Below, piece by piece: positions 18,541 through 64,000 of a stretch of DNA of 64,000 nt. How positions within the stretch are numbered: the stretch's first letter is position 1; each line of letters starts with the position of its first letter. The position numbers were made by a program, and so were the translations under genes. The DNA is from Medicago truncatula (lineage: Eukaryota; Streptophyta; Magnoliopsida; Fabales; Fabaceae), in the NCBI RefSeq assembly GCF_003473485.1, contig NC_053045.1, positions 7,466,501 to 7,530,500 on the forward strand, given 5' to 3'. Under the pieces are notes generated by a model. It saw nothing but the letters and a program-made list of their open reading frames with translations. It was not told the DNA's origin and did not search any database.

Positions 18541-21500
18541 ATGAACATGATGGTTCCTCCTTCTCATAATTCACTTCACTATTCTTGTCAGATTCTACTT
18601 GCATTTGGACTTTTTACTTTGAATATGTTAACTCATATTGAAGCTTATGGCTCAAAGGTTGAACATCTTCCTGGTTTTCAAGGACCTCTTCCTTTTGAAC
18701 TTGAAACTGGGTGAGAGCAATCTTAATCATTCCATATTTTTTTGTGTTGACATTCTGGTTCGTATGTAAGAGACCTAGTAATCTGGAGTTCGTCGGTGGT
18801 AAGTAAGGTCTGACTAAAAAGTGTTCCATGCAGGATTCAACTCGGGTTCTTCCGAACAATTCATCCTTAGTGGAATTCATTAACCACTTTGAATTCAATC
18901 ATTTGTTAATATACAATCATTTTACAATGAAATTCGATGACAACTCGTGCAGTGTGCCAAGTAATGTAGTTGTGTGTTCATATATATTTGATAGGTACGT
19001 GGGGTTAGGGGAAACAGATGATGACATGCAAGTGTTCTATTATTTTATCAAATCAGAAAACGATCCTCAAAAAGACCCTCTTATGCTTTGGTTAACTGGT
19101 GGTCCTGGCTGTTCTTCTTTTTCTGGCCTTGCCTATCAAATAGGTAATTTACAAATCACAATTTATTTGTTTTTGTGAATATTGTTTTGACAGTATTGGT
19201 AATGTGCATTGCTGGCTATGTATTATCACACATGTATGGTTTTACTGGTCACATAATTTTCTATGTTTAGATTGTGTTATTCGAGTTTATCTGCTCACGT
19301 AAACACTTGTGAGTTTGTTCCGGATACGTTATAGAAACAGCTTAAGTATTTTTCATGGCAATCTGATAAGTATCCCAAGTACTTGGAAAATCCTGCAAAC
19401 CTAAGCACTTAAATACTCCACCGACCATCCCTTACTAATAGACGTGGGATTGGGCACTGCATGATACTTAAGTCCATATCGTAGCAGCACTCCTGAGAAC
19501 AATGTCCTGGCGGCAGCGCTCTTTGATGCTTAACTTGGCCTTTCTAATCAGAGTGACAGCAAAGAAATAAAAAAATTACCTAAGGCTCCCCTCTTATTTA
19601 TAGGAAACATGCCATATTTCCTAATTACCGAACTCTTATTAAGCTATTAACAGAACATTGCCTTCCCTCCGACTTGTACCTATCACAGTCTAAAGATATT
19701 TTACTCTTTCACATCAATTGAATGTTAATAGGTCCAGTTGCATTTGAAATCAAGGAGTACGATGGGAGCGTGCCTAGTTTGGTCTTGAGGCCACAGTCAT
19801 GGACAAAGGTGTTGATAATAACTCAATAATTCAACATTGATTTCATTTACTTAAGTTAATCCAAAATTTGTACTAAAGAACTATGATTTATATTAGTCAT
19901 GTCATGTGGTTATAATATGTAGTATATAGTTTGTGTTAGTGTGATTCTACAAGTCAAAATATTCTCTCTTTTTATGTTTTACTTTCATGATTTCATTATT
20001 GGAAGGTCATTTACCGGTAGTAATGCTAATGAACTTTTGGTCAGCTATGCAGCATTATTTTTGTTAATTTGCCGCTTGGAACTGGTTTCTCATATGCAAA
20101 AAATGTCACGGATCACCGGAGCGACTGGAAACTAGTTCACCATACTTTTCAATTTCTTAGGAAGGTATGTTCCTAATGCTAACTAGGGTGCAGATGGGCT
20201 TTGACGTGCTCAATAAAGTTTCTTCCCCAACTTACGACTTGATTTTTGTCATGATGGATGGCAACTATGATCTTCATTTAAGAAAAGCGGATCATGTTAT
20301 TCTCCTAACTATGACTCAAAACAAATGATATTTTGATCACTTTCTTATCAACTGAAACAGATTATCTGTATTTGTATAGTGGCTGATTGATCACCCAGAA
20401 TTTCTTTCAAATGAATTCTACATTGGAGCTGATTCATACTCTGGCATTCCTGTCCCAGCCATTCTTCAAGAAATTTCAATTGGTTAGAAATCCTATAAAG
20501 CTCAATATTTTAGATGGATTAATCTTTATCTAATGGTAAATTTCTTTGTAATTATAATTACAATGAGGCCGAAAAATTATTCATTTTAATTAGTCCCCCT
20601 CACTCAAATAAATTGATTATTTGCATTCTCCAATGACAGTAAGCAAATCAAAAAGTTTAGTATAAGCTGACTTGATTCGGATTGTCAGTGTGCCTCTTCC
20701 CCTAAAAACCAGAACATAAGGACTTAAAAAAACCGATTGATATTTTTCCATTTGTTTGATTAACAGGAAATGAAAAAGGTCTCCAACCATTGATAAATCT
20801 CAAGGTTCCAAACCATCATCTCTGTCAGTCGCTTCTATTACCGATGAACAAAAAATCTAAATAGGGATTTTGAAACCCCAAATACCTTTGTTCCATTGAT
20901 CTTGTTATATGCATTATGAAATATGAAGCCTGAACCGGCTTGAACATTTTCAGGGATATCTGCTAGGGAACCCTATAACAACACACAGAGAAAAAAACTA
21001 TCAAATCCCATTTACTCATGGAATGGGACTCATTTCTGATGAACTTTATGCGGTATTATTATCCTTATTATTCTTTAGTAAATCTATACATACGTTGTAC
21101 TTGCCTGTTGGTTACAATGATGATGTTAGTATGCTTAATGGTCTACTGTTATCTATTGACAACAGTCACTGCAGAGAAATTGTAAAGGAGAGTATGTTGA
21201 TGTAGATTCCAGAAATGAGTTGTGTTTAAGAGATCTCCGATCCTATGATGAGGCAAGTAAACCATTCCAATTTCATCTATACTTATTATTAAGATGATAC
21301 TGAAGTTTTGGTGTGGTCTTTGGGAAGAATAACATTTTCAACAGTAGCTACTTAATCATGGACATAGTCACATTAGAAGAAAAAGATAAGAAGAGAGAAG
21401 AAAAACGAAGTAGAAAAGTGAAAATAATAAAGGAAGAGAAATAAGAGACTGGTAAAAATGGTGTCTGTAAGCATGTTAATCATGATAGTTAAGATGTTAA

Positions 21501-23936
21501 TTGTTTGCCATATTGTTAAACTGTTATTTCTTCTTATCATCAGTGCCTTTCAGGACTTGATATGTTCCACATTTTGGATCGCTTTTGTGACGATGATCCG
21601 CGTTTGTGGAGAAGATCTTTGACTCGGGAGTTGAAGGAGTCTCTTATTTCTCGTCTCACAGTGCCCGAACTAAACTGCCAAGTAAGTTTTTCATAACTTA
21701 TCTAGATTCACACACAATTTTTGTCCATAAAATGTTTCATTATTGTGATGTTTCTCGTTTTCATTATTGTTGTAGTTTTATAGTTTTTACCTGAGCACAA
21801 AATGGGCTAACGATGAGTGTGTTCGCAAGGCACTGCATATTCGAGAGGTTTGATATGACAAACTTACAAACTCATCATATCTAGTGATCTTCTTATGTTG
21901 AATCATAATTGGAAACAGATACTTAAGTCTATGTTACATTACAAATACTTTTGAATTTGAGTTGAATGCATCAAAGAATTCTCGACAACTAATGGATATC
22001 AATATCATATTAACGTACATAGCTTTGAGCATTGCAGGGAACCATAGGGAAATGGGAACGTTGTTACTCTAATGATTTTGAGAATGAGATCCTTGGTAGC
22101 TTTGAGTTTCATGTAAATCTAAGCAAAAAAGGATACCGGTCTTTGATTTACAGGTGAATATTTTCTATTTTAATGTAGAGTTTTTTCTTTTTAGACTCGT
22201 GTTGTCACCATATCTATGTAGTGTTTTTCTTGGATTAAGCTCATCTAAAGTGAGCATTTTGCTTTAGAAGGTGGCTGGAACTCAAGTCTATTGCACCGTT
22301 TTTATGGGCCCGGTGTAAGCCCTTGCGGTTTCGCCATTAGTTGAAAGATGCCTTGGTTAGTTGAGTGCGTGGTTTGTATAAATTACTCTTAATTTTAATT
22401 TCGAAGCAATGTGAGACTTCTTGGTGTACTGGAACAGTAGCCCCAAGTCGGGGCTAAGGGGCCTAAGGGCTTACCAGCTATCGTTTGTGGCTTAGGCCCC
22501 ATCCAGCATCAATGCCCCAACCTCAAGTCCGCTGCTTCATTTTTCTGAAGTTTTGACCGCTTTAGTTCTTGTGTAAGTAGTCACAGTTTTGTTCTTAGTT
22601 AAACGGCGCCTCAGTGGAGTGCAGAGCATAGGTTTTTATAAACTTCTCTTAACCTTTATTCTAAAGAAATGTAGAACTTTTTTGTCTATCAGAACAGAAG
22701 GTGAAGCAAGTAATCTCAACTGTTAATAAGAAAATCAATGGTTAATATTTTAATACATTCATAAAATTACTATGCATGTCCTGGTAACATCAATAATTGA
22801 TTTATTCATCATAGTTGAGATTACTTGGTTTACACTCTAAAGTGAATTGTCCACTTTTGAAGAGCGAGAATCGTTTTTCTTCTAGCTTTCTTGATGACAG
22901 ACATTAAGGCTAGCTGATTTTTTATGGCAATTGATGTGTTGTTGGCAGTGGAGATCATGATGCAGTTGTTCCTTTCATGTCTACTCAAGCTTGGATAAGG
23001 AATCTAAACTACTCCATTGTAGATGATTGGAGGCCATGGTTTGTAAACGGTCAAGTGGGAGGGTAAGCATCAAATTTCAATATGTAAATGGTGCACTAGT
23101 CAAAATAGTCCTTCATTTTTGAGAATTAGACAATTTATCCCAAAAATTGAAAAATGTCTTTCAAAATGTCCTTTTCGTTAACTTCTTCTGTTAGAGGCTA
23201 TGATGTTGCATGTTAAACATGTTACATTGAACATTGTTCTCACATCAATTTCAGTTCCTAGGGACTAATTTTCCTAGGAAATTTGGGTCATCATAGAGAT
23301 AAGTTGTTAGTAATTGCAATTGTGCAAGACTAATTATTGGAAAATTTGGCCCTAAGAAATCCAAGTTTCATAGGCGAAGTAGTCTACAGTCCGGTGGCAA
23401 ATGATGTGTAATCAACGTGAAGGGACTGTGTATTCACTTAACATGTTGCGTCATAGTCTCTAATCATAAAACTCAACAGATTAACTATTTTGACAGTTCG
23501 CAAAAATCATAGACTATTTTGACAGTTATTTATAATTTCGATGACTGATTTGTCTATTCACTCGTTTTTCCAATCCTATTTTTCTATATTTTTTTATATG
23601 TATTCAATTAGTACCTAGAATCCAATAAGAGAACCTGTATCCCAATCATAATCAACAATTCTTTCATGCAGATACACAAGGACATACTCGAATCGAATGA
23701 CTTTTGCAACCGTGAAGGTAAGAACTTGACTAATTAAATAACAAGTGATATTTTGTTCTTTTAAGAATAACACTCAAATTGGTGAAATATTTCAGTGTCT
23801 TCAAAGGGATTATGCAAATTCATTATAATGATTTTTGCTTAATTAATTGCAGGGTTCAGGACATACAGCTCCTGAGTACACTCCTGAGCAATGTTTTGCC
23901 ATGTTCACTAGGTGGATATCTAACTTGCCTTTGTAA
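18541..23936 (+). CDS. Serine carboxypeptidase-like protein, array copy 1, 470 aa, 14 exons
   Basis: Secreted or vacuolar alpha/beta hydrolase of the SCPL clade that includes glucose-ester-dependent acyltransferases. Exons: 18541-18710, 18995-19143, 19732-19808, 20045-20164, 20380-20482, 20767-20804, 20954-21052, 21166-21252, 21544-21681, 21776-21847, 22038-22153, 22949-23062, 23672-23717 and 23853-23936. A signal peptide is likely (hydrophobic 18-31, cleavage near HIEA35). The oxyanion-side motif GGPGCSS is at 92-98. The triad is Ser191 (YIGADSYSG), Asp394 ([10 protein letters not shown]) and His447 (GSGHTAPEY). DSY rather than ESY at the serine favours acyltransferase over peptidase activity; this is family knowledge and not proof. 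N-glycosylation sites are NVT152 and NYS410. Oddities: Ala189 where Gly is usual, and FVNLPLG where the other copies read FVDLPLG. The intron after exon 8 is GC-AG. Intron 2 carries retroelement debris. Confidence 0.93.
19360..19700. repeat. Retroelement debris in SCPL copy 1 intron 2
   Basis: 'ctgataagtatccc' and 'aactcttattaagctattaa' followed by 'cagaaca' also occur in SCPL copy 2 intron 2 (29,284-29,620). There, 'tttgatactaacagtgataa' looks like a reversed primer-binding-site and LTR boundary. Copy 3 intron 2 keeps only 'agatattaacagaatatagg' near 38,797. The insertion probably predates duplication. Confidence 0.45.
23090..23565. repeat. Non-autonomous element in SCPL copy 1 intron 12
   Basis: The left side 'caaaatagtccttcatttttg' and the right side 'catagactattttgacagtta' are loosely complementary. 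They resemble the 'cgtccttgaa'-arm elements at 25,598-25,833 and 36,672-36,995. Ends are approximate. Confidence 0.4.
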
Positions 23937-27340: not shown

Positions 27341-30300
27341 ATGAACAAGTTGATTCCTCCTTCTCATAATTCACCACACTATTCTTGTCAGATTCTACTT
27401 TCTCTTGTACTTCTTAGTTTGCATATGTTAACTCCTCTTGAAGCTTATGGCTCAAAGGTTGAACAGCTTCCTGGTTTTCAAGGTCCACTTCCTTTTGAAC
27501 TTGAAACAGGGTGAGAGCAATCCTAATCATTCCATATTTTGTTTCATTTTCACCTCCTGCAATGGGGGTGCATTGTAGCAAGTAATGTAGTTGGGTCATA
27601 AATTTGATAGGTACGTAGGGTTAGGAGAAGCAAATGATGACATGCAAGTGTTCTATTATTTTGTCAAATCAGAAAGTAATCCTCAGAAAGATCCTCTTAT
27701 GCTTTGGTTATCTGGAGGTCCTGGTTGTTCTTCTTTTTCTGCCCTTTTCTATCAAATAGGTAATTTTCAAATTACAACTTTATTGTTTTTTTAATATTTT
27801 TTGACAATTTACTGATAATACATAATTGACTATGTGGACCACACACGTATGTGTTTACTATTAAGAAATGAGTTTATAACTAGGACACATCTATACCTAG
27901 TTTAATTAGATCCATTTTAAATTTTAAGATTTTATCATATTCTATGCAAGATTTGTTGGACCACGTCCACCACTACCGGAGGTGGGTAGTTAGATGAGAT
28001 AGGTATTGTAATGAATTTATAAGTGAGAGATATTATTTTACTCTACAAACTGATTTTGTAGAATGAGTTAGACTCAACCCATGTAGGATTTGAGTTAGAC
28101 TCAACCGAAGTTCTAAAAATACAAAACATTGTAATCCAAAGAAGCACTTGGTATGATATGTGTATTCTCTGGATGCATTTGATCTACAAAACAACAGTAA
28201 ATACTGGACAAAATAGTACAAGACAGAACATCACAACACAAGACAGAACAATACAGGACAAATTTTTATGGCATTGAATAATTTTTGGTCTTATACGATT
28301 TTTGGTGGACAAATGTTATTTTGGTATTTAGACAACTTATACATAGAACAAAAAGTTGTGTTGTGGTTTGGTGAGGGACAAAAATTTTTGTTTTTGTTCT
28401 GTCTCTTGCCTCGAGTTTGTCTTATCTCTGAAATCAAATACTAAACAACTTAAGTTATCATGTCCTGTCCTTTAATTTGTAAGTTAGTTTCGAAATTTAT
28501 TATTATCTCTGTTCCTTTTTAATTATCATATTAAAGTTATTTAGACATACCTAGAAAACTAATAAACTGTTAGTTTTCATAGTTAGTACTCCCTCCGTCC
28601 CTATATATAACCCCCTTTTGCTTTTTTCACATTTCTTTAAGAAAAATTGTTAATGCAATTAATGTTTATATTTTATGTGTTAATATTACCAAATTATCCT
28701 TTGTTTGTATGTGTGTTAAATTTGATTTTTCATATTTCAAGATAAGTTAGCAGTATTAATTAAGGGTATGTTTAGGAAAAAATAATAAATACATCTAGTA
28801 ATTTGAAAAGAGGTTTATATTTAGGGACAATTTTTTAGTCAAATGGGTGGTTATATATAGGGATGGAGGGAGTATATTGTTAGAGAGGGGAGAGAAATGT
28901 TAGTTTCCGGGGATTGAAACCGAGACCCCATTCAACGTCCCTTAGCTCATCAACTGAGCTAAGTACGCAGGACTATCTTATCATTTGTATAGAATATCTT
29001 AAACTCTTAAGCCATTCCATTGTTTCACATCTACATACCTTTTTTCTTTAGGATCATACAGATTGAACATAGGATTCACATTTGTTTCTGCTGATAATTT
29101 GGACATCTGTGCATTCAGGCTATAAATTGCATTAACAAGTGTTTCTTTCATAGCCAATATTTTCACCTTGGTGCTCATTGAGTCCAACAACAAATGCATC
29201 CCTTTTGCTTCCTTTCCTTTGAAACTAATATCATTTCACTTTCTAGCTTCCTTATAATTTCTCTTCTACAAATATTTTCAAGACTGTTAAGGTGAAGAAC
29301 CAAGTCACTTAAATAGTCCACTTAACATCCCATAATACTCAACTCCCTACCGTATAGTGCTGCCCATGAGAAGCTACATTCCATCGGATGCACGCTGTAT
29401 GTCTCTTTACATCGCTTTTCCGGTTCATAGTTAGTACTTAGACCTTTCTCAGCCACCGATGACCAGGCTTTGATACTAACAGTGATAAGTATCCCAGCAC
29501 TCTATAGTACCCTAGTCCCTATTATAGGCAACATGCTTTATAGTTATTTCCTAATTGCCTAATTAACTCTTATTAAGCTATTAACAGAACATAGGCTTAA
29601 CTCAATCTTGTAGCAATCACAAGCTTAATAAATTTGACTCCTTTTGTGTTATTTCTGATATGTGTTTTTGTATTTTAGATAAATTTGAAATTTTATGATA
29701 TTAAATTCTATTAAAATTCGATATAGACGTATTTGTACCTTAAAACTTTTGATTGCGCAACATAGCTAATCACATTTGTTTTGTGACATAACAATCTATA
29801 ACATTTCATTTGTATCCTTTTTATATTTGTATATATATATTTTTAAAATATTGTGTCAAGATCACTATTGAAATTTTAACATGTTGTGAAGCAAATGTTC
29901 AATTGGATGTTTATAGGTCCAGTTGCATTTGAAATCAAGGAGTACGATGGGAGTATGCCCGGTTTGGTCTCAAGGCCACAGTCATGGACAAAGGTGTTGA
30001 TAGCACCTTAATAATCCAAAATTTGTTCTAATAAGAACTATGATTTATATCAGTCATGTCATGATGTACAAGTATAAATATCCGTTCTATTTATGTTTCT
30101 TTTCCTGATTTCATTATTGGAAGGTGATTTACTCGTAGTAATGTTAATGATCTTTTGGGCAGCTATGCAGCATTATTTTTGTAGATTTGCCACTTGGAAC
30201 TGGCTTCTCATATGCAAAAAATGTCACGGATCATCGGAGCGACTGGAAACTAGTTCACCAAACTCATCAATTTCTTAGGAAGGTATGTTCATTATGCTCA

Positions 30301-32709
30301 CTAGCGCGCGTCTCTCCTCTTTTCTCGAATGAAGACCTTAGTCGGCTTCCATTATGACGAAAGTTAAGCCTGCAACAATCATCTGTATTTGTAGTGGCTG
30401 ATTGAACACCCTGAATTTCTTTCAAATGAATTCTACATTGGAGGCGATTCATACTCTGGAATTCCTGTCCCAGCCATTCTTCAAGAAATTTCAAATGGTT
30501 AGAATTCCAAAAAAGTCTAATAAATTGTTTATTTGCATTCCCCTTTGACAATAAGCAAAGCAAAAAGTTTAGCATATTAAAGGGATTTTCCGGATTACCA
30601 GGTTCCCCATCCCCTAAGAGTCGGACGGTTAAGAAGAAGAAAAAACTGACTGATAATTTTTCCATTTGTTTGATCAACAGGAAATGAAAAAGGTCACCAA
30701 CCATTGATAAATCTCCAGGTTTCCAACCATAATATCTATTTGTTGCTTCTACTACCGACGGAAAATTAATCTCAGGAGGGAATTCTGAAATCCACCATTG
30801 TTAACTATAGATCCTGTTATATGCATTTTCAGGGATATCTGCTAGGGAACCCCATCACAACATACAGAGAAGAAAATTATCAAATCCAATATGCTCATGG
30901 AATGGGACTCATCTCTGATGAACTCTATGCGGTATTATTGTTGTTGTTGTTATTATTATTATTAATAATGTGTTTGAACTTGAATTTAAAGAGTGATGTT
31001 ATTATGCTTAATGGTCTATCATTATATCTTTTCAGTCACTGCAGAGAAATTGTAAAGGAGAGTATATTGATGTAGATTCCGGAAATGAGTTGTGTTTAAG
31101 AGATCTCCAGTACTTTCATGAGGCAAGTAAACCATTCCAATTTTATATATACCTATTATAAAGAGGATACTAAGTTTTGAAAGGAAGAGAAATAACATAC
31201 GAGGTAAGGCGGAAGTCTCTGATTGCTACTTATGATAATGATAACCCCTTCGGTTAAACTGTTGTTTCTTATCTTCAGTGTCTCTCAGCAATTAATGAGT
31301 TCAACATTTTGGATAGCAATTGTGAAGATGACGAGCATCTGTGGAGGAGATCTTTGACTCAGGAGCTGAACGAATCTCTTAGTTCTCGTCTCACAGTCCC
31401 TGAATTAAGTTGCAAAGTAATTGTTTCAACGCTTATCTAGATTCGGACAGAATTTTTGTCCATAATGTTTCAAATTTGATGTTATTCATTTTCATTATTG
31501 TTGTAGATTTATGGTTACTACCTCGCCACTAAATGGATTAGCAATGAGAGTGTTCGCAAGGCACTGCATATTCGAGAGGTTTGATATTATAAACCTTTAA
31601 ACTTATTCTATGTTACATTATCAATATCATATTAATGTACATAATTTTGATCCCTGCAGGGAACCATAGGGAAATGGGAACGTTGTTACATGAATGATTT
31701 TGAGTATGATATATTTGGTAGCTTTGAGTTTCATGCAAATCTAAGCAAAAAAGGATACCGTTCTTTGATATACAGGTGAAGATTTTCTCTTTTAATGTAG
31801 CGTTTTTTCTTTTTAGACTCGTGTTGTCACCATATCTATGTATCTTTTTCTTGGATTAAGTTCGTCTAAAGTGAGAATTTTGCTTTAGAAGGTGGTTGAA
31901 ACTCAAGTCTATTGCACCATTTTCCGTAGGTATTTTTCACTTTGGGTCTTGTGTAAGCGCTCACGGTTTCACCCTTAGTTGAAAGACACCTTTGTTAGTC
32001 GAGTGGTTTGTATAAATTACTCTTAATTTCAGTTTTGAAGCAATGAGACTTTTTGATGTGTTGTTGGCAGTGGAGATCAAGATGCAGTTGTTCCTTTCAT
32101 CTCTACTCAAGCTTGGATAAGGAATCTAAACTACTCCATTGTAGATGATTGGAGGCCATGGTTTGTAAAAGACCAAGTGGGAGGGTAAGATTAAAACGTC
32201 TTATCAATGTTTTAAAAATTGGATTGAACTGGTGAGTACAACTGGTTGAACCGAACACCAACCAATCCGCCAGTTGGCTAGGTTCCAGTTGTATCATAGT
32301 CCCATTTAATTGGATTGAATCACAATCGAACCAGGTTGAATATAACTCTGCACAGCTGGTCCGTTGCTTTTTATTTGTTTGCATTTTTTTAAATACTTTT
32401 AATTTTATATTTATTTGTCGTCCGATTTAATCATGGTTGATCCTAGCATGCATCCTAATCTTAATCAATAACTTGCCATGCAGATACACAAGGACTTACT
32501 CCAATCGCATGACATTTGCAACTGTGAAGGTAATAAATTATTAATTAAATCACAAATACTATTTGGTTAAAACATGTAAGTGTCTTTGATGAGATTGTGC
32601 AATTTTCATGTAATTAATTTTGCAGGGTTCAGGACATACAGCTCCTGAGTACACTCCTGAGCAATGTTTTCCCATGTTCACTAGGTGGATATCTAATTTG
32701 CCTTTGTAA
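27341..32709 (+). CDS. Serine carboxypeptidase-like protein, array copy 2, 470 aa, 14 exons
   Basis: Same predicted role as copy 1. Exons: 27341-27510, 27611-27759, 29917-29993, 30163-30282, 30395-30497, 30681-30718, 30833-30931, 31036-31122, 31279-31416, 31507-31578, 31660-31775, 32071-32184, 32484-32529 and 32626-32709. All are equal in length to those of copy 1 and in frame. A signal peptide ends near PLEA. GGPGCSS is kept. The triad is Ser191 in the canonical YIGGDSYSG, Asp394 in [10 protein letters not shown] and His447 in GSGHTAPEY. This is the only copy seen with Gly-Gly before DSY, so it is the best candidate for a standard acyltransferase. I start at the ATG at 27,341; an upstream in-frame TTG is not used. 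The exon 8 donor is GC (catgag|gcaagt). Intron 2 is swollen to 2.2 kb by a Stowaway MITE, family A repeat and retroelement debris. Confidence 0.94.
28170..28460. repeat. Dispersed repeat, family A, inverted relative of 236-400
   Basis: It contains 'gttgtgttgtggtttggtga' and 'ggacaaaaat', the complement of phrases at 340-395. It lies in SCPL copy 2 intron 2. Confidence 0.5.
28589..28872. mobile_element. Stowaway MITE, 284 bp
   Basis: It has the classic arm 'ctccctccgtccctatatat' at the left and 'atatatagggatggagggag' at the right. TA dinucleotides sit on both sides (28,587-28,588 and 28,873-28,874). It lies in SCPL copy 2 intron 2 and is absent from the other copies. Confidence 0.9.
28905..28980 (-). 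repeat. tRNA-like SINE fragment
   Basis: 'ggggattgaaaccgagaccc' and 'cttagctcatcaactgagct' are reversed B- and A-box-like sequences. There is no cloverleaf, so this is a decayed SINE piece and not a tRNA gene. Confidence 0.45.
29284..29625 (-). repeat. Retroelement debris in SCPL copy 2 intron 2
   Basis: 'caggctttgatactaacagt' followed by 'gataagtatccc' reads on the minus strand as an LTR end plus primer-binding site. The stretch to about 29,620 would then be the LTR. Related sequence is in copy 1 intron 2. Confidence 0.4.
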
Positions 32710-33540
32710 AAAGGAAATGAAAATCGTGTCAAGGTTTCATGTTTCAGTTTTTTCGTGATTTCGTCTTCTTCACATCTTGCCCGGAAAAAAAAAAAAGAAT
32801 ATTCTGGTTACTGTGCTACAAAATTCACTACAAGATAATGATTGATAACAATAAGCATGATTTGATTTTTTTTAATAAGGAGAGAACGTTAAAATTAATT
32901 AGTAGAATAATTGGCGCGATTTGATACATTTATGGTTTGAATTTTTAAAAACTGAAATGTATAAAAAACAAAATTATACATCATTCAATATCGCTAGAAA
33001 TATATATGATGAATCTGTGAACAAACACATAACATCCAAGTTTATAACATACATAGACAAAATGCCTATAAATAATATTACAAATTTAAAGTGATCGAAC
33101 TCATATCTCTGATTTACAACGTTGATGTCCAAAATATAATATGAAGCTGCAACATAATTAAATATGATTTTGAAAGTCATTAATCATAATTTTTTATATG
33201 TGCATTGTATTCATATATCATTAATCATCCAAATTGCATCAAAAAATACACATGTTTTTCAAATGTTTAAATATACCTATACCTACTATATATTAAACAT
33301 GATTTTTGTGTTCAAATAGATACTTGAAAATCGCGGCTAAGTCCATTGCTTTTTTAATTGTTTGCTTTTTTTTTCAATACTTTTACTTTTTCATTTACTT
33401 ATTTGTCATCCGATTCAATCATGGTTGAACCTATTGAACCATAACATCGAGGTTTCACCCGTTTGACCTCCTATCCAATTTTTTAATTATTTCTTCATAA
33501 CCAAATATCTGAGGGTGCATCAGACTCGTCTGATCCTGAC
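32710..33540. other. 3' flank of SCPL copy 2, first copy of a repeated block
   Basis: 32,710-32,870 is repeated at 34,555-34,720 ('cgtgatttcgtcttcttcac', then 'gataatgattgataacaata'). 32,985-33,140 is repeated at 34,850-35,000 and about 35,270-35,430 ('cgttgatgtcc' or 'cgttaacatcc', 'caaataatat'). No gene is seen. Confidence 0.6.
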
Positions 33541-33572
33541 ATGTATCCCAATCTTAATAACTTGCCATGCAG

Positions 33573-34554
33573 ATGCACAAGGACTCACTCGAATCACATG
33601 ACATTTGCAACTGTGAAGGTAAGAAATTATTAATTAAATCACAAGTGCTCTTTTGTTCTTTTAAGAAAAAACAGTCAATTTGGTGAAAACATGATTATTT
33701 AAGGAGGGTGGATTGAATCATGATTTTAAGGGATTTTAATAGACTTTTTTATAATGAAAAAGTTTTGTGGTATTCAATCAAGACTCTTTTCAATTTAAAA
33801 AAAAGTCTTGTGTTATTCAATCAAGATTCTCTGTCATTTAAAAAAAGTCATGTGGTATTCAATCAAGACTCTTAATCACTTAAAAAAAGTCTAGTGGTAT
33901 TCAAAATCATTCAAATTTCGAAGGATTGTTTAATAAATCAGATTTTGATGAATTTTGTGGGATTTTCTAGTGAAATTTTAGCATGAAAATTTTTTTCATG
34001 AAAACATGAGATTTCTTAAGATTGTTTTTTTTCTTTTAAGATTTTACTATCTCTTCCTCTCTCTCCTCCCTTCTCTCTTACTCTCTCTTTTCCTCTCCCC
34101 TCTCTCCTTCCTTATCTCTCTCTCTGTAAAAAATAAAATAAATAAAAAAGTCTTTATTGAGATTTTGTGAAAGAGAGTGTGTTATGATATTTTTTTCAAT
34201 TATTTCTTAAAATTCATAAAATCTCTTGAAATCTCTTGAAATCCTTAAAATCATTTCAAATCCTTTAAAATCTTATGAATTAAATCTATTGAAATCCTTA
34301 ATAGTCTTTTAAAATCATCAAAGTCATCAAAATTCTGCAAAGTCTTTTAAAATCCTCAAGACTTTTTTAAACAAAAATTATCTTTTAAAATCCTAATCCA
34401 ATACACCCAAGTGTCTTTGATGAGATTGTGCAATTTCCTTACATCAATTTTCATGTAATTAATTTTGCAGGGTTCTGGACATATAGCTCCTTAGTACACT
34501 CCTGAGCAATGTTTTCCCATGTTCCTTAGGTGGATATCTAATTTGCGTTTGTAA
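33573..34554 (+). pseudogene. SCPL relic: duplicated exons 13 and 14 only
   Basis: 33573-33618 is a second exon 13 (GCTRTHSNHMTFATVK) with intact AG and GT borders. 34471-34554 is a second exon 14. In it, GSGHIAP is followed by an in-frame TAG at 34,492-34,494 where the active copies read GAG (Glu). The stop at 34,552 is otherwise in place. The 5' and 3' flanks match those of copy 2, so this arose by local duplication of the gene's 3' end (offset about 1.1 kb at exon 13 and 1.85 kb at exon 14). The intron between them was enlarged by an inserted foldback element. It cannot be expressed alone, but spliced readthrough from copy 2 could in principle reach exon 13. Confidence 0.9.
33690..34412. 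mobile_element. Foldback element with internal tandem repeats
   Basis: The left end 'ggtggattgaatcatgattt' is complementary in style to the right end 'aaatcctaatccaatacacc'. Inside are about four direct repeats of roughly 45-60 bp, each with 'gtggtattcaatcaagactc' or a variant (33,765-33,900), then a CT-rich tract (34,040-34,125). It is inserted in the intron of the SCPL 3' relic and is absent from the parental intron 13 at 32,530-32,625. Confidence 0.7.
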
Positions 34555-36260
34555 AAAGGACAAGAAAATCGTGTTAAAGGTTTCATGTTTAAGTTTTTTT
34601 TCTTCGTGATTTCGTCTTCTTCATATTTTGGCTGGAAAAAAAAAATATTATGCTTACGGTGCGACAAAATTCACTGCAAGATAATGATTGATAACAATAA
34701 GCATGATTTGATTTTGTGCATTTATGGTTTGATTTTGTTTCAAGGAATTTATGGTTTGAATATTTAAAAAGGGAAGTGCATCAAATATGTTTAAAAAACA
34801 AAATGATATTCATTCATTTAAATTGATAGTGTATATCATTCAATATCACTCAATGTAATAGATAAATCTGCAAACAAACTCACAACATCTAAGTTGATAG
34901 CATACATGACAAAATACATACAAATAAAATGATAAAATTAAGATGACTAAAATACTCATACACATATTTGCAACGTTGATGTCCAAAATATGAAGCATCA
35001 ATTTATCAATCAAAATTAAAAACGCCACATAATAAAGAAAATAAAAATGAAATAAGTAAGACCAACATCACCAAAATTAAAAAACTATTTATGTGGTTTG
35101 TAAGATCTATCTAGGACGTTTATATTCTTGGGTTGCATGTTTAAACTCAATATTCTTGGGTTGCATGTTCAAACTACTTCATCTAAGAATGGATGTAAAA
35201 TGATAATTAAACGATATTTTTATTGACAAAAAGATATCATTTATTCGATAGAATACATAGATACAATAACATTATCAATATCGCTAAGAAAGTATAAGGG
35301 TGAATCTACGAACGAACTCACAACACCTAAGTTAATAGCATACAACGGCAAAATGTCCACAAATAATATGATAAAATTTAAATCACTGATACTCAAGCTT
35401 TCGGATCTACAACGTTAACATCCAAATCATTTTGATTGAAGTTGATGTTTCAATATGAATCAAACAAACACTGCAATAAGGCGCAAAATCAAACAACATC
35501 ATAAAAAACGACAAACAACACAACGCTGCACTCAAATGACGAAATCACGAAAAACACAATAAATAACTTGATGTATGTGGAAATCAGTTATTAGATCGAA
35601 AGAAAAGGGAAAAAAGATTCGGAGAGGTGATTCTAGGCCAAAAGTTGATCTAAAACCACATCTTCTCGATGAGCAGAAGAGAAAGAGATCTTAGTGCGAA
35701 GTTGGGAGTTTTTCTCACTAAAAACCTTGGGCCGACTATTGTTCTTTTACCCTAATGTTTATATGATCATTATGTAACAACTTTTGAATTGTTGTGTTCT
35801 TTGACTTAAGTGTACTTTTGATTCTTAACTTTTTTAACGTTGCGATTTTGACTTTCTATTAAAAAAATAACAAATTTAGTCCCTTCTACTCCACCTCAAT
35901 CTCTTCCTTCTTCCCCATTCCTCAATTCCATCGACAATTTCAGGTTAAAAAATCCCCAATTTTGTCAAACAATCCATTGACATCAAACTCGAAATATTAC
36001 AAAGAGGCTAGTTCATAAAGGATAAAATTTATCATTTTTTTTCACGGGGGTCAAAATCGCAACATTAAAAAACTTATTTTTTTTTCTTCTCAAAAATAAA
36101 ATACACTTATTTTTTTATTATTTTTGACCAATAATAGAAAAAATAAGTTTAAAATTTGTGACATATGGTTATATAGACTCAAAATGGATTTATAGTTTAA
36201 ACTAAACGGTTCTTCTCAATCATTATATGTACTTTTTATATTTTATAGAACACACGTTCT
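34555..36260. other. Repeated 3' flank and repeat-rich spacer before SCPL copy 3
   Basis: It holds the second and third copies of the block described at 32,710. A short tandem pair sits at 35,117-35,175 ('tattcttgggttgcatgtt' twice). At 35,805-36,110 an inverted-arm element has 'gttgcgattttgac' on the left and 'gtcaaaatcgcaac' on the right, related to the element at 5,754-6,187. Confidence 0.55.
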
Positions 36261-39300: not shown

Positions 39301-40479
39301 TTTGAAAACAAGGAGTACGATGGGAGCGTGCCTAGTTTGGTCTCAAGGCCACAGTCATGGACAAAGGTGTTGAGAGCACCTCAATTATCCAACACTGATT
39401 TAATTTACTTAAGTTAATTCAAAGTTTTGGATAAGAAATAATATATATATATATATATATGCCATGAGGTTATAATATGTATATAATTTGTGATGAGATA
39501 GCTCTACAATTCAAAATATTCATTCTTTTTATATTTTCTTTTCATGATTTTGTTATTTGAAGGTGATTTACTGGTAGTAATGTTAATGATCTTTTGTTCA
39601 GCTATGCAGCATTATTTTTGTAGATTTGCCACTTGGAACTGGTTTCTCATATGCAAAAAATGTCACTGCTCATCGAAGTGACTGGAAATTAGTTCGCGAT
39701 GCTCATCAATTTCTTAGGAAGGTATGTTCAGTGTACTAACTAGCACACATCTGTCTGCTTTTCTCGAACTAAGACCATATTTGGCTTCCATCATGACAAA
39801 TTAAGCCTAAAACAAATATCTGTATTTGTAGTGGCTGATTGATCACCCTGAATTTCTTTCAAATGAATTCTACATTGCAGCTGATTCTTACTCAGGCATT
39901 CCTGTCCCGGCCCTTGTTCAAGAAATTTCAAACGGTTAGAAATTCTAAATGGCTCAATGATATGAATTAGTCATTGAAGTAATGGTAATTTTCTTTATAA
40001 TTATTATGCAGAGGCCTAAAAGTTTCTTAATCATTTTAATTAGTGCTCTTACTCTAATACATTGATTTGATTATTCTCCTTTGACACTACGCTAAGCGCG
40101 AAGAGTTTATTATCGTAAAGCTGACTATTAATTCAGATTATCAGCGTCTCCTTACCCTATGAACCAACGACTGAAATTTTTCCTTTTCTTTGATTAACAG
40201 GAAATGAAAAAGGTCTCCAACCATTGATAAATCTCAAGGTTCCGAACCATAATCTCTGTCAGTTGCTTCTATAACTGACAAACAAAAAATCTAAATAGGG
40301 ATTTTGAAACCCCAAATACCTTTGTTCCATAGATCTTGTTGTATGAATTATGAAGCCTAATCCAATCTCAACATTTCCAGGGATATCTGCTAGGGAACCC
40401 CTTAACAACATTCAAAGAACAAAATTATCAAATCCCATATGCTCATGGAATGGGGCTCATTTCTGATGAACTCTATGCG

Positions 40480-40555
<76 letters not shown>

Positions 40556-44363: not shown

Positions 44364-44719
44364 ATGTACATGATGGCTCCTCCTTCTCATAATTTACTTC
44401 ACTATTGTTGTCAAATTGTACTTGCTTTTGCACTTTTTATCTTGCAGATATTATCTCACATTGAAGCTTATGGCTCAAAGGTTGAACAGCTTCCTGGTTT
44501 TTCAAGGACCACTTCCTTTTGAACTTGAAACGGGGTGAGACCAATCCTAATCATTCCTTTTTCTTTTCTCAATTTTAAGATATGAAATTTAATTGGTTTA
44601 GCTTAACTTTATTTTTTAGTACGAGATGTGTTATTTGGACATCTAAATAGTTGTCCAACAACAACTAGTGTGTGTCTATAGTTGTAATACGTTGGCAATT
44701 TTTAGATATTTAAATAACA

Positions 44720-44835
44720 TTTTGTACGTGTCTCTGTAAGCATAGGGGACAGGTTCAAATCCCGAGCACCCAACTTGTTCACTTTAAAAAGTGAATTCTA
44801 GTCACTAAGTCACTTGACTAGCAAAAATAACATTT
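44720..44835 (+). repeat. SINE-like segment in SCPL copy 4 intron 1
   Basis: 'aggttcaaatcccgagcacc' resembles a B box. The tail 'gaattctagtcactaagtca' then 'cttgac' matches 11,465-11,485. Confidence 0.5.
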
Positions 44836-47800: not shown

Positions 47801-49009
47801 TAATTGTTTATTCCTCAAGTTGTTTACACTTTAATAGTTACCTCTTTTTTTCAGCTTCAATGATTTTGTTTGACATATTGTTAAACTTTTATTTCTTAAC
47901 TTCAGTTACTCTCAGGAATTAATATGGACAACATATTGGATAGCTTATGTGAAGATGATATGCGTCGGCGGAGGAGACCTTTGACACGGGAGCTGATCCC
48001 ATCCCTTAGTTCTCATCTCACAGTTCCTGAGATAAGCTGCTATGTAATTTTTTCATAGCTTATCTAGATTCGGACACAATGTTTATCCATAATGTTTCAA
48101 ATTTGATGTTATTCATTTTCATTATTGTTGTAGATTTATGGCTTTTACCTCTCTGCTACATGGTCTAACAATGAGAGTGTTCGCCAGGCGCTGCATATTC
48201 GAGAGGTTTGATGTGATAAATCTATAAACTCATATAATTTCTAGTGATTTTTAATGTTACACTACAAATAGTTTTGAATTTGAGTTTAATGGATCAAAGA
48301 GATCTCAACAACTAAAGGATATCCAAATCATATAGGGAACCGTAGGAAAATGGTATCGTTGTTACAATACTGATTTTGAGAAGGAGATCTTTAGCAGCGT
48401 TGAGTTTCATGCAAATCTAAGCAAAAAAGGATACCGCTCTTTGATATACAGGTGAAGTTTTTCTCTTTGTAATTTAGTGTTTTTGTTTAAAATTAGTGTT
48501 CCTTACCATTAGAGATAAAGTTGGTTAATAGTTAGTTTGGTTGTTAGTTGTCTTTTTTATCTTCTTTACTTCCATATGGATTTATATCTATAATTTCTTT
48601 TGGCAGTGGGGTTCTTGATGCAATTGTTCCTTTCATGTCTACTCAAGCATGGATAAGGGATCTAAATTACTCCACTGTAGATGATTGGAGGCCATGGTTT
48701 GTAAATGGTCAAGTGGGAGGGTAAGCATCAAACTTCAATATAAATTTGATAGTATCAACTTTTTATAATCCCTTGAAACCAAATTGCTGAGGATGCATCA
48801 GACTCATATGGTCTTAACATATACAATTTATGTCTTATTTTCTGCTCACCATGATGGATTTATGAATCTTAATCAATAATTTTCCTTTCATGTAGATACA
48901 CAAGGACTTGCTCAAATCGAATGACATTTGCAACTGTGAAGGTAAGAAATTACTAATTAAATAACAAGTGATCTTTTGTTATTAAAAGAAAAATACTCGG
49001 TTTAATTCG

Positions 49010-49215
49010 TTGCTTGGATAAACAAATTAAGAGTTTCTCATATAAGTGCTTAATTATAAGCTATTTTTATAAGAAAAGATAAAATAGAGTCAAATTATTT
49101 TCATAAGTTAACATGAAGATGATGTAAGCTATTTCCATATTGTTTTTCAAAGAGTTTCCAAGTATTTATATCAGCATATAAACTCAAAATATAAGCCAAT
49201 CCAAACAAGCACTAA
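49010..49215. repeat. MITE-like insertion in intron 13 shared by SCPL copies 4 and 5
   Basis: From 'cgttgcttggataaacaaat' to 'ccaatccaaacaagcac', the sequence is also at the same intron position in copy 5 (55,756-55,970). It is absent from copies 1-3. It belongs to the same loose family as the repeats at 5,310-5,580 and 14,100-14,385. It marks copies 4 and 5 as close relatives. Confidence 0.7.
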
Positions 49216-49451
49216 GCATCTTTGATGTGATTATGCTAATTTGTGATATCAATTTTTGGGTAATTAATTTTGCAGGGTTCAGGACATACAGCTCCTGCGG
49301 ATGCTCCTGAACAATGTTTTGCCATGTTCACTAGGTGGATATCTAATTTGCCTTTGTAAATCAAAAGCTGATATGGCATAAATATGGTTATCTATGAAAT
49401 ATTCACTTTCAATGATTTTCTTTTCTTTAATTTGTCAATTTTTGACATTGT

Positions 49452-51632: not shown

Positions 51633-54600
51633 ATGATTCCTCCTTCTCATAGTTCACTATACTATTGTTGTCAGTTTGTACTTGCTTTTGCACTTTTTAG
51701 TTTGCATATGTTAACTCCTCTTGAAGCTTATGGCTCAAAGGTTGAACACCTTCCTGGTTTTCAAGGGCCACTCCCTTTTGAACTTGAAACGGGGTGAGGG
51801 CAATCCTAATCATTCCTTTTTCTTTTTCAATCTTTCTTTTTTCTATTTTATAGAATGAGATGTTATTTGGACAACTTTGTCGGACAATGTACAATAACAG
51901 TATAAATACATCTTTATTTCTTAGTGTTTTCGTTTTCAGAGTCAAATCAACAGTTATAATATGATATGTTTTTATATGATGTGAAATACCTTAGTAATAT
52001 TTAGATGTTCAAATAACATTTTTCTATTATTCATTTTGTGTCAAATTAATGGAGCTTGATTTTGGTGTGTACTTTTAATTTTTAATTTATGGATTTAAGT
52101 GATGATCTTGTAATATAGAGTTTGGTTCGGTTGAGTGATACACCATGTTAAAGGTTTTTGTGGGCATTCCAATCACACACCCCTCCCTAAAAAAAAACTT
52201 GGTATGCGTCCAAAGAAATGAGTTCAATTCCACCGTTCACTTGAGGAACTTCCGTCTTGTTAATGGGTGTGTCGTGTGCCAAGTAATGTAGCTGTGTATC
52301 ATATATTTGATAGGTACGTGGGGTTAGGAGATTCAAATGATGACATGCAAGTGTTTTACTATTTTGTAAAGTCAGAAAATAATCCTCAGAAAGACCCTCT
52401 TATGCTTTGGTTAACTGGTGGTCCTGGCTGTTCTTCTTTTTCTGGACTTGTGTATGAAATAGGTAATTTTAAAGTGTGATTATTCAATAATTTTTGTGAA
52501 TTTTGTTTAAACAAATTATTGATGATGCATAGCTGGTTCTCTCTCTCTCTTGCATTTTGATTCTAATAGGTCCATTTGCATTTGAAATCAAGGAGTACAA
52601 CGGGAGCGTGCCTAGTTTGGTCTTAAGGCCACAGTCATGGACAAAGGTGTTGATAACACCTCAATTACTAAATATTGATTCATTCATTCATTGAAGTTAA
52701 TCCAAACATTTTAATAAGAACTAATGTTTATAGTTATCTATGGTCAGCTATCCAACATTATTTTTGTAGATTTGCCACTTGGAACTGGTTTCTCATATGC
52801 AAAAAATGTCACGTATCACCGGAGCGACTGGAAACTTGTTCACAATACTTATCAATTTCTTAGGAAGGTATGTTCCTAATGCTAACTAGGGTGCAGACGG
52901 GCACTTCCGTGCTTGATAGAGTTTCTTTCACAGCTTAAGAAAAGCGGATCATGTTACTGTTGTCATATTTCTTGTCGCGCTTTTTTATTTCACTTTGTTC
53001 AATACTTCCCTGGAGACTGAAAAGGAATGATAATTTGATCATTTTGGAATCAACTGAGACAATTATCTGTATTTATATAGTGGCTGATTGATCACCCTGA
53101 ATTTCTTTCAAATGAATTCTACATTGGAGCTGATTCATACTCAGGCATTCCTGTCCCAGCCGTTCTTCAAGAAATTTCAAATGGTTAGAAATTGTAAAAA
53201 GCACAATTTTTAAGATGGATTAGTCATTAAGTAATGGTAAATTTCTTCATAATTTTTTTTTGAAGCGGTAAATTTCTTCATAATTATAATGATCAGGAGG
53301 CCATAAATTTTCTTAATCATTTTGATTTGTCATCCTCGCTCTAATAAATTGATTATTCGCATTACCTTTAGACAATAAGCAAAGCAAAACGTTTAGCATA
53401 TTAAAGGGACTGTCCGGATTACCAGGGTCCCCATCCCCAAGAACCGGATGGTTAAGAAGAAGAAAAATTGGACTGATATTTTTCCATTTCTTTGGTTAAC
53501 AGGAAATGAAAAAGGTCTCCAGCCATTGATAAATCTCCAGGTTTCCAACCATAATCTCTATTTGTTGCTTCTACTACCGATAAAAAATTAATCTAAATAC
53601 GGATTTCTGAAATACCATAGATCTTGATTTGTGCATTATGAAGCCTAAACAAGTCTTAACATTTTCAGGGATATCTGCTAGGGAACCCCTATACAACACA
53701 CAAAGAAGATAATTATCAAATCCAGTATGCTCATGGAATGGGACTCATCTCTGATGAACTTTATGCGGTAATATTATTACCAATTTTGTTTTTTTGAAGG
53801 AAATTATTACCAATTTAGTTTGTACATTTTGTCGTTGTAAATGCATCGAATCATATGTCACAATGTAGATATTTTAGGAAACTAATATCATAAGGTGGCA
53901 TATTTCATTAGATACATGTATAAGAATGTTTTACTTTGTAAATACATAGTAATTAATCTCTATTAGTATTATTATTATTATTCCTGTTTAATCAAACAAC
54001 ATGGATTGTATTTTCTTGTTGATTACAATGATGATATGTTTGTACTTGAATTTAATGGATGATGTTATTATGCTTAATGGTCTACCATTTTATCTTTTCA
54101 GTCATTGCAAAGAAATTGTAAAGGAGAGTACATTGATGTAGATTACAGAAATGAGTTGTGTTTAAGAGATCTCCGGTCCTTTGATGAGGCAAGTAAACCT
54201 ATTATAAAGAAGATAAAAAGTTTTGGTGTAGAATTTTCTTTTAAATTTTATCCTTCATTTAATCTAGAATTTGTTCTTTTTTATACAATCAAATAGCTAG
54301 AGTAAAAAAAAATCAAATAATTGGAATTTTCTAAAAACCCTATAAAACTTTGCAACTTTCATTGTGTTTTATACCAATTATAAATTCCAGCATTTACCCC
54401 TTGGCCCTTAGAGTTAAGAAGGGAACATTCAACATTAGCCAGTTAATCATACACAGACATAGCCACAGAAGATGGAAGAGAAATGAGAGACGGGAAAAAG
54501 TGGAAATGCTTGTTTGCATTCTAGTTACGATAATGATAATCCCTTCAATTATCTCTTGTTTTTCAGCTTCAATAAATTTGTTTGACATATTGTTAAACTT

Positions 54601-56114
54601 CTATTTCTTATCTTTAGTGTCTCTCAGGAATTAATAAGGAAAACATTTTGGATGGCTTTTGTGAAGATGATTCGCGTCTGTGGAGGAGATCGTTGAAACA
54701 GGAGCTGGGCGCACCTCTTAGTTCTCCTCTCACAGTTCCCAAATTAAGCTGCCATGTAATTTTCTTCATAGCTTATCTTGACTCGGACACAATTTTTGTC
54801 CATAATGTTTTAAATTTGATGTTATTCATTTTCATTAATGTTGTAGATTTATCGTTTTTACCTCGCCACTAAATGGGCTAACGATGAGAGTGTTCGCAAG
54901 GCACTGCATATTCGAGAGGTTTGATATAATAAACCAATATACTCTTTACATCAAGTGATTTTCTTTTTTACATTATACAAATACTTCTGATTTTGAGTTG
55001 AATGCATCACAGAAGGCTCATAAACTATTGGATATCAATATCATATTAATGTACATAGATTGAGCCCTACAGGGAAGCATAGGGAAATGGGAACGATGTT
55101 ACACTACTGATTTTGAGCGTGAGATCTTTAGTAGCGTTGAGTTTCATGTGAATCTAAGCAAAAAAGGATACCGCTCTTTGATATACAGGTGAAGATTTTT
55201 TTCATCATTGTTGAGATTACTTGTTTTACACTCTAAAGTGAATTGTCCAGTTTTGCGAAGTGAAATTCATTTTTCTTATTGCTTTCTGGATGCCATTATG
55301 ACTAGCTGATTTTTAATGGCAATTGATGTGTTTTTTGCAGTGGGGATCTTGATTTAGTTGTTCCTTTCCAGTCTACTCAAGCATGGATAAGGGATCTAAA
55401 CTACTCCATTGTAGATGATTGGAGGTCATGGTTTGTAAATGGTCAAGTGGCAGGGTAAGCATCAAACTTCAATATGAATTTGATTGTATCAACTTTTTAT
55501 AATCCCTTGAAGAAAATTGTTGAGCATGCAACAGACTCATATGGTCTTAACATGTACAATTTATAGGGGTAGATTGTTAGAAAATTATATATCTATGTCT
55601 TATTTTCTGCTCACCATGATGAATTAATAATCTTCCTTTCATGCAGATACACAAGGACTTACTCAAATCGAATGACATTTGCAACTGTGAAGGTAGGAAA
55701 TTACTAATTAAATAACAAGTGATCTTTTGTTATTTTAAGAAAAATACTCAGTTTAATGCCTTGTTTGGATAAACAAATTAATTAAACTCTTCTCATATAA
55801 CTGCTTAATTGTAAGCTATTTCTATAAGAAAAGATAAAATAGAGTCAAATTGTTTTCATGAGTTAAAATGAAGATGATGTAAGCTATTTCTATGTATTTT
55901 TTCAAAGAGTTTCACAAGTATTATATCATCAGATAATTTCAAAATATAACCCAATCCAAACAAGCACTAAGCATCTTTGATGTGACTGTGCTAATTTGTT
56001 ATATCAATTTTTGGGTAATTAATTTTGCAGGGTTCAGGACATACAGCTCCTGCAGTCACTCCTGAGCAATGTTTAGCCATGTTCACCAGGTGGACATCTA
56101 ATTTGCCTTTGTAA
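51633..56114 (+). CDS. Serine carboxypeptidase-like protein, array copy 5, 467 aa, 14 exons
   Basis: Exons: 51633-51793, 52314-52462, 52570-52646, 52748-52867, 53081-53183, 53503-53540, 53669-53767, 54102-54188, 54618-54755, 54847-54918, 55073-55188, 55341-55454, 55647-55692 and 56031-56114, all in frame. Exon 1 is nine bases shorter than in the other copies because the protein begins MIPPSHSS rather than [11 protein letters not shown]. The signal peptide ends near PLEA. GGPGCSS, Ser188 (YIGADSYSG), Asp391 ([10 protein letters not shown]) and His444 (GSGHTAPAV) are present. The residues after the catalytic His (AVTPEQ) and WRSWFV near the end differ from copies 1-3 (EYTPEQ, WRPWFV). Copies 4 and 5 share introns 8 and 13, so they are the closest pair. 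The exon 8 donor is GC. It is probably functional. Confidence 0.93.
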
Positions 56115-58416: not shown

Positions 58417-58418
<2 letters not shown>

Positions 58419-58419
58419 T

Positions 58420-61196: not shown

Positions 61197-61226
61197 CTAG
61201 TACTTGGACCCGTGCGATGCACGGGA
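61197..61226 (-). mobile_element. Second Helitron 3' terminus, minus strand
   Basis: On the minus strand a 7-bp stem with a 3-base loop (cccgtgc-atc-gcacggg, 61,209-61,225) is followed by eight bases, CTAG and T. It has the same hairpin sequence family as the end at 8,851-8,881. The body should run to the right of here. Confidence 0.72.
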
Positions 61227-62700: not shown

Positions 62701-62719
62701 AGTGAGACCAACATCACAC

Positions 62720-62946: not shown

Positions 62947-64000
62947 ATGAACATGATGGTTCCTCCTTCTCATAATTCACTTCACTATTTTTGTCAGATT
63001 CTACTTTCTCTTGTACTTCTTAGTTTGCATATGTTAACTCCTCTTGAAGCTTATGGCTCAAAGGTTGAACACCTTCCTGGTTTTCAAGGACCTCTTCCTT
63101 TTCAACTTGAAACAGGGTGAGTCAAATCAATAGTTATAATATGATATGTTTTAATGCGATGTGATTTTTAGATGTCTAAATAACAATTTTTTACTATTCA
63201 TATTTAGAAACTTTGACATGTGAACTACATAAACTATTGGGGCTTGAATTTGGATTTAATTGGTGTGAACTATCCATGTAATTTCTTTTTACAATGCAAT
63301 CGATCATATCTCATCATTACTTTATTTTAATGTTTTTTATATTCTCTCCGTTGTTTTTTAATTGTGACTTGTCAACAGCAAATACATTTTACTATTAGTC
63401 CCATGAGCTTAGCTCAATTGGCAGAGACATTACATAATTTATATAGAGGCCGGGATTCGAACCTCGAACACACTCCTTCTCCACTTATTTCATATATTTC
63501 TTTCTCTATAATAAATAACTAAGGGCAATACAGGTAAAGCAATATTTAATATTGTATTGAACTTTGAAACTGCCAGCTAAGTTAACTAGAAACATAATTA
63601 TATTTCTTTCTCTATAATAAATAATTAAGGGCAATATAGGTAAAACAATATTTAATATTGTATTGAACTTTGAAACTGCCAGCTAAGTTAACTAGAAACA
63701 TAATTTTCCTGCAAAAGTGACAATTAAAAGGAAACGGAACGAGTACTTTTAAACTTTTTAAAATATCTTCACATTTATATGCGTGGTAGAATTTAATTGA
63801 TATATGTGTAAGAGCAATTATATTTGTACATCTATTCCATGACAACTTTAGGGACAACCTTGTTTTTCTCCCTTCTTATTGGTCAAAAACAATGGAGAGA
63901 GAAAAAGGAAGAGAGAAGATAAGACCATCACGTGAGTATGAGAGAGAAAATTGTACAAAAGTTGTCACAAATTGGTTGTACAAATATCATTTCTCATGTG
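62947..64000 (+). CDS. Serine carboxypeptidase-like protein, array copy 6, 5' end only
   Basis: Exon 1 is 62947-63116 with a GTGAG donor. It is equal in length to and nearly identical with exon 1 of copy 3 ([17 protein letters not shown]..., signal peptide ending near PLEA, then [11 protein letters not shown]). One change near its end gives FQLETG instead of FELETG. No exon 2 (YVGLGE...) appears before the window ends. Intron 1 of the array ranges from 100 bp to 1.2 kb, so it probably continues beyond the edge. Functionality cannot be judged. Confidence 0.85.
63344..63745. mobile_element. MITE with nested SINE and internal tandem duplication
   Basis: Arms 'ctctccgttgttttttaatt' (left) and 'aattaaaaggaaacggaacg' (right) are inverted. 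A tRNA-like SINE piece at 63,403-63,470 lies inside. A 106-bp unit starting 'tatatttctttctctataat' is repeated in tandem at 63,493-63,598 and 63,599-63,704 with few differences. Confidence 0.7.
63812..63997. mobile_element. MITE with 'atatttgtaca' inverted ends
   Basis: The left end 'caattatatttgtacatcta' and 'ccatgacaactttagg' pair with the right end 'aaaagttgtcacaaattgg' and 'tgtacaaatatcattt'. The middle is purine-rich. It lies in intron 1 of SCPL copy 6. Confidence 0.6.

Follow-up and report, generated by a model that had tools for sequence, protein, structure and literature searches.

Alanine in the nucleophile elbow of an eight-gene SCPL tandem array: a putatively local change that gene conversion probably passed among the copies

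A tandem array of eight SCPL genes is found on C4 of Medicago truncatula, and six of its members carry Ala in place of the first Gly of the nucleophile-elbow pentapeptide. Judging from the sequences, we consider it fairly likely that the array is still undergoing gene conversion and that its members work like the glucose-ester acyltransferases of clade IA. The best reading of the observed sequences, their distribution and the selection patterns, from which we infer the activity, expression and substrates of the copies, is that these are active clade-IA-like acyltransferases diversifying in substrate, in which Ala would be tolerated as it is in the A-x-S-x-G lipases.

The window, which is the whole stretch of 64,000 nucleotides that was analysed (C4:7466501-7530500), holds five whole copies and the beginning of a sixth that is cut by the window end, all head to tail on the plus strand (Table 1). 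The tandem units were seen by comparing the window with itself, and exon models were built on copy 5 and then transferred to the other copies. The array extends past the window with the rest of copy 6, followed by copies 7 and 8, and each of the eight members has 14 exons; no ninth copy was found in the approximately 15 kb examined behind copy 8. A genome-wide search with exon 5 (429.9 Mb, 42 contigs) returned eight matches in the array stretch of C4. The same genome has at least 159 matches to the late nodulin family PF07127 (E up to 0.001), compared with zero in 14 control genomes, as would be expected of a legume from the inverted-repeat-lacking clade. The frame is open through all 14 exons in seven of the eight copies. 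Copy 1 starts at ATG 18541 or 18550, and the start first modelled for copy 2 is a TTG; since an in-frame ATG exists nine bases upstream (27341), a position at which copies 1, 3, 4, 6 and 7 also have one, copy 2 reads as intact. The exon models bear out the count of an earlier note on this DNA, which was four intact copies, one frameshifted copy and one cut copy, lying head to tail. The two relics listed there lie behind copy 2 and consist of a decayed exon 13 (33573-33618) and an exon 14 with an in-frame stop (34471-34554); a tblastn search with seven array proteins, the modelled exons being masked, found no further relic in the window.

Several other features were seen in the same stretch. 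Between copies 1 and 2, the open frame at 24514-24927 encodes a Pol_BBD domain (PF22936) and is probably a copia-like retroelement fragment. An aldo/keto reductase exon (PF00248) lies at 4304-4684, and the open frames on the minus strand at 15601-17091, whose only Pfam match is Transket_pyr, below the cut-off, presumably resemble exons of the E1 beta subunit of a 2-oxoacid dehydrogenase. A mycorrhiza link was rejected, since the two SCP-like loci in the accessible part of PMC6240842 are, by their names, on chromosomes 3 and 7, and the array is on C4.

Table 1. Coordinates of the SCPL array and its features (window positions unless C4 is given).
Feature	Position	Strand	Basis
SCPL copy 1, 14 exons	18541..23936	+	exon models; PF00450 E 6.4e-120
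Copy 1 nucleophile elbow, IGADSYSG	20422..20445	+	
Copy 1 intron 8, GC-AG donor	21253..21543	+	exon models
SCPL copy 2, 14 exons, Gly elbow, ATG at 27341	27341..32709	+	exon models; PF00450 scan
Copy 2 nucleophile elbow, IGGDSYSG	30437..30460	+	
SCPL 3'-end relic behind copy 2	33341..34991	+	self-comparison, exon models, tblastn
SCPL copy 3, 14 exons, elbow AADSYSG	36327..42458	+	exon models; PF00450 scan
Copy 3 nucleophile elbow, IAADSYSG	39874..39897	+	
SCPL copy 4, 14 exons, exon 1 one-base insertion	44364..49359	+	exon models
Copy 4 nucleophile elbow, IGADSYSG	46307..46330	+	
SCPL copy 5, 14 exons	51633..56114	+	exon models; PF00450 scan
Copy 5 nucleophile elbow, IGADSYSG	53123..53146	+	
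SCPL copy 6, exon 1 only in window; gene ends C4:7535569	62947..63116	+	exon models
SCPL copy 6, whole	C4:7529456-7535569		exon models, genome beyond window
SCPL copy 7	C4:7537122-7542722		exon models, genome beyond window
SCPL copy 8	C4:7544113-7551636		exon models, genome beyond window

All four proteins scanned (copies 1, 2, 3 and 5) match PF00450, peptidase family S10, with E-values of 6.4e-120 or lower and along the full profile (1-420 of 420), and copies 4, 6, 7 and 8 align with them over exons 2-14. The Ser-Asp-His triad is kept in all eight copies; its Asp was assigned by alignment to the lysosomal protective protein, using triad residue numbers that we take to be those of that enzyme. 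Asp, and not Glu, precedes the nucleophile Ser in every copy, and Thr or Ser stands before GGPG in every copy, where the peptidases shown have Asn. According to the accessible part of PMC11449225, one residue change in the pentapeptide separates the clade I acyltransferases from the peptidases, GDSYS being the acyltransferase form; because the peptidases have GESYA, the discriminating change is Asp for Glu. The pentapeptide GDSYS itself, which is described as diagnostic for characterised enzymes of clade IA, is found only in copies 2 and 6, with ADSYS in copies 1, 3, 4, 5 and 7 and ADSYA in copy 8. A PDB search returned 19 distinct sequences, all of them peptidases, protective protein or hydroxynitrile lyase, and no characterised plant SCPL acyltransferase was among them.

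From copy 1 to copy 8 the elbows read GADSYSG, GGDSYSG, AADSYSG, GADSYSG, GADSYSG, GGDSYSG, GADSYSG and VADSYAG, and those of copies 1 to 5, including Ala in four of the five, are exactly as the earlier note gave them. Only copies 2 and 6 have Gly at nucleophile-2, the position two residues ahead of the nucleophile, the remaining six (1, 3, 4, 5, 7 and 8) having Ala; at nucleophile-3 there is Ala in copy 3, Val in copy 8 and Gly in the rest, and copy 8 alone in the array has Ala at nucleophile+2. Against these six of eight copies, Ala at nucleophile-2 occurs in none of 60 other elbows in the genome (22 loci and 38 further matches, six of which the first search had already returned), a set that represents what two exon-5 peptide searches returned rather than the whole family and that includes fragments and degraded copies. 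Seven of the 60 were placed by eye from translations, and those counted as Gly include L088 (Arg for the nucleophile), L062 and L080 (stops), the degraded-looking L087 and L090, and L017. The last of these (L017/L044, C3:16.23 Mb) is an SCPL paralog with the elbow IGGGSYSG, in which Gly takes the place of the Asp or Glu preceding the nucleophile. The non-array elbows have A, T, S, V, I or G at nucleophile-3, and all 60 have Gly at nucleophile-2. The same Gly is seen in carboxypeptidase Y, in wheat carboxypeptidase II, in the lysosomal protective protein and in 12 of the 13 bacterial S10-like loci, the other one (L093) being without a readable elbow. As far as this genome shows, Ala at nucleophile-2 appears private to the array, and its presence in six of eight copies and none of the 60 elbows elsewhere points to a local, derived change. 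The ADSYS motif was not found in the open-access SCPL literature searched, mostly titles and abstract openings, and nothing in the sequences and literature searched indicates that Ala is common in active SCPL acyltransferases.

In the five window copies, exons 2-14 have lengths of 149, 77, 120, 103, 38, 99, 87, 138, 72, 116, 114, 46 and 84 nt, and those of copies 6-8 are the same; every exon length is common to all eight copies save that of exon 1 in copy 4, where one base inserted into a run of T gives 162 instead of 161 nt. The frozen exon sizes claimed earlier therefore stand for all complete copies, but they are largely common to the relatives as well. When the eight copies were compared with the four nearest paralogs modelled likewise (C2a, C2b and C2c at C2:5.90-5.94 Mb, C3a at C3:49.63 Mb), 8 of these 13 exons (3, 5, 6, 8, 10, 12, 13 and 14) had a single length across all 12 genes, and such uniformity within the array would be expected of genes copied from a conserved architecture. 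The paralog at C3:49.63 Mb (L039/L047) is without intron 1, its exon 1 reading straight into exon 2. The tea SCPL-I genes, in the part of PMC7330524 that is accessible, are reported to have at most 14 exons, to include tandem duplicates and to show positive selection. The donor of intron 8 is GC in all eight array copies and GT in the three C2 paralogs; in the window this GC-AG intron (G|GCAAGT) has its donors after 21252, 31122, 40768, 47180 and 54188. The GC donor is, on the sequences compared, a derived trait, a splice-donor change that has become fixed in the array.

With regard to the direction of the elbow change, the nucleophile-2 codon is GGT in the four nearest paralogs, GCT in the Ala copies and GGC in copies 2 and 6, and the nucleophile+3 codon is GGC in the paralogs and the Ala copies and GGA in copies 2 and 6. 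The Ala copies are one change away from the paralog codons (GGT to GCT), and copies 2 and 6 are two silent changes away. Because of these steps, the retention of Gly in copies 2 and 6 is simpler than a reversal from Ala, and Gly is probably the older state. The earlier proposal of copy 2 as the ancestral type is supported to this extent, the four nearest paralogs having Gly, but the Gly elbow is not peculiar to copy 2, since copy 6 has it too.

The elbow type and the genealogy of the copies do not agree. Copies 2 and 6 are identical in all 24 elbow bases, and three of the four two-state sites that only they share in exons 2-14 lie in exon 5. The two copies agree to 99% in exon 5 and to 62.5% in intron 4, where only 112 columns align; from intron 5 to exon 6 they are no more alike than copies 5 and 7 (92.6% for each pair). 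In a tree computed without the eight elbow codons, a single clade of the Ala copies was rejected (p-AU 0.0037), as was a single clade of copies 2 and 6 (p-AU 0.0031). This tree pairs copy 2 with copy 3 (support 65/95, not firm) and sets copy 6 apart; four of its nine inner branches are open, and the backbone has support of 36-59 in another tree of the array. With both clades rejected, the elbow type has probably moved by gene conversion, which seems the simplest account of the distribution. Gene conversion would also explain why copies 2 and 3 almost coincide in some stretches (exon 8 identical, exon 11 99%) and why the tree backbone is weak, and it would at the same time blur the tree and inflate the site tests.

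The site models point to diversifying selection, both in exon 9 and close to the catalytic centre. The codon models were run with our own scripts, not codeml, and with naive posteriors, and conversion inside a partition is uncorrected, so that the tests may be inflated: M2a against M1a gives 2dlnL 30.6 (p 2e-7), with an omega of 3.9 for 5% of sites, and p 9e-5 when copy 4 is left out. With each partition on its own tree, the signal is seen in exons 9-14 (p 6e-7) and codons 323-467 (p 9e-5); it is seen as well in exon 9 (p about 0.03) and codons 193-273 (p 4e-4), and is absent in exons 2-5 alone (p 0.42) and codons 165-276 (p 0.16). Exon 9 has a pairwise dN of 0.197 and dS of 0.320, compared with 0.072 and 0.168 in the other exons. 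We take exon 9 for a putative spacer peptide that would be cut in these enzymes; spacer cleavage in SCPL enzymes is reported in the accessible part of PMC11886809. Sites with a posterior of at least 0.85, numbered in the register of the exon models, are 285, 297, 309 and 310 in exon 9 and, elsewhere, 100 (behind the oxyanion motif), 224, 335, 359, 364, 397 and 456. Site 392 (posterior 0.58, 0.92 in its own partition) lies immediately after the catalytic Asp, which we assume to be number 338 in wheat carboxypeptidase II, and it therefore adjoins the residue matching Val340 of that enzyme. Val340 is a ligand contact in the wheat carboxypeptidase II table of PMC7034887, of which a part is accessible. 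The same source has the residue numbered 178 in the wheat enzyme touching its elbow Gly149, and site 224, which reads I I L F Y I W L across the eight copies, aligns with Leu178 of carboxypeptidase Y. As placed by alignment, several of the variable residues thus appear to sit around the elbow and the pocket.

Relaxed function is one of two possible causes of the elbow variation raised in the earlier note, the other being a shared change of activity; in the case of relaxed function, the Ala elbow would mark copies that are losing function, with copy 2 (and 6) as the working type. Over exons 2-14, the five window copies have pairwise dN/dS values of 0.38-0.57, and the M0 omega over all eight copies is 0.43, so that selection is on average purifying; the end branches of copies 1 to 8 have omegas of 0.33, 0.45, 0.33, 0.49, 0.51, 0.18, 0.93 and 0.40. 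The contrast between Ala copy 7 and Gly copy 6 in these values would fit a relaxation, and so would copy 4, which in addition to its frameshift has Val in place of an otherwise conserved Asp, two positions ahead of the catalytic one (SGVLD; exon 12, 48607-48720). On the copy 4 branch, omega = 1 is rejected (2dlnL 6.95), the frameshift is therefore recent or an assembly error, and copy 4 is either a recent pseudogene or the carrier of such an error. A test of the Gly tips against the rest also favours relaxation on the main tree (p 0.027) and on one of two other topologies (p 0.035); on the remaining topology, however, p is 0.182, the effect stems from copy 6, and the pair ranks fourth among all 28 tip pairs, three of which give a larger statistic. 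Moreover, Gly copy 2 has a higher omega than Ala copies 1 and 3, and both the open frames in seven copies and the intact triads speak against a loss of function. Gly versus Ala does not predict constraint, and relaxed selection was rejected as the cause of Ala, since the branch models do not track the two elbow types. We therefore hold relaxed constraint to be improbable; the change in the array does not look like decay but like a local one that moved between adjacent copies, which remain under constraint.

Two further readings concern what the array does. A shift towards peptidase or hydrolase activity could be argued from the elbow of copy 8, VADSYAG, in which SYAG is as in peptidases, the aligned S10 peptidases having GESYAG; the Asp before the nucleophile and the Thr or Ser before GGPG, each present in all eight copies, make such a shift very improbable. 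The Ala copies might instead be non-catalytic companions that aid the folding or processing of the Gly copies, as CsSCPL5 does for CsSCPL4 in tea. Such paralogs exist in the clade, according to the accessible part of PMC11886809, and both elbow types are present in the array. CsSCPL5 resembles the array copies in being an SCPL-IA paralog with an altered active-site motif, but its triad is changed (T-D-Y, same source), whereas the array keeps an intact triad, with Ser and His in all eight copies, and we regard the companion role as quite unlikely.

If the copies are active acyltransferases, as we prefer to read them, the nucleophile Ser would take the acyl group from a glucose ester and hand it to an acceptor, as in clade IA enzymes. 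Ala would have arisen in one step, GGT to GCT, and gene conversion would then have spread or removed it among the copies. Because a small residue at this place keeps the elbow turn, Ala at nucleophile-2 would be neutral or mildly tuning for catalysis. Exon 9 and residues close to the catalytic centre would carry most of the functional divergence, so that the acyl acceptor or donor probably varies from copy to copy. A bolder version, of which we are doubtful, makes the Ala elbow an adaptive tuning cassette: conversion would shuffle Gly and Ala elbows among the tandem acyltransferases while selection diversifies the residues that pack against the elbow and those that line the pocket, and the outcome would be an enzyme set with different acyl-transfer kinetics or acceptors. 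The array offers a natural experiment on one backbone-critical position, in which close Gly and Ala relatives can be compared, and particular sites in it emerge as candidates for a role in substrate choice. It is also worth considering that GDSYS is used for sorting plant acyltransferases from peptidases (PMC11449225, in its accessible part); six of the array genes would fail this filter yet look functional.

Among the closest known systems are the clade IA acyltransferases, such as CsSCPL4 and the sinapoylglucose acyltransferases, with which the array shares the S10 family, the triad and the Asp before the nucleophile. It differs from them in that GDSYS is their pentapeptide and ADSY(S/A) that of six array copies. 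A likeness of another sort is offered by the A-x-S-x-G lipases (bacterial families I.4 and I.5; AHSMG), active enzymes with Ala for the first Gly of the pentapeptide, as described in the accessible part of PMC9408867. In their light, the earlier note is too strict, as far as the whole fold is concerned, in holding that this Gly is usually kept tight. These lipases belong to another family of the fold and are lipases, not glucose-ester acyltransferases. In Bacillus LipB, the same source reports, a change from Ala to Gly altered the stability at different pH; given this shift and the activity of such lipases, a modest effect of Ala on stability or rate would be expected in the array, with activity kept.
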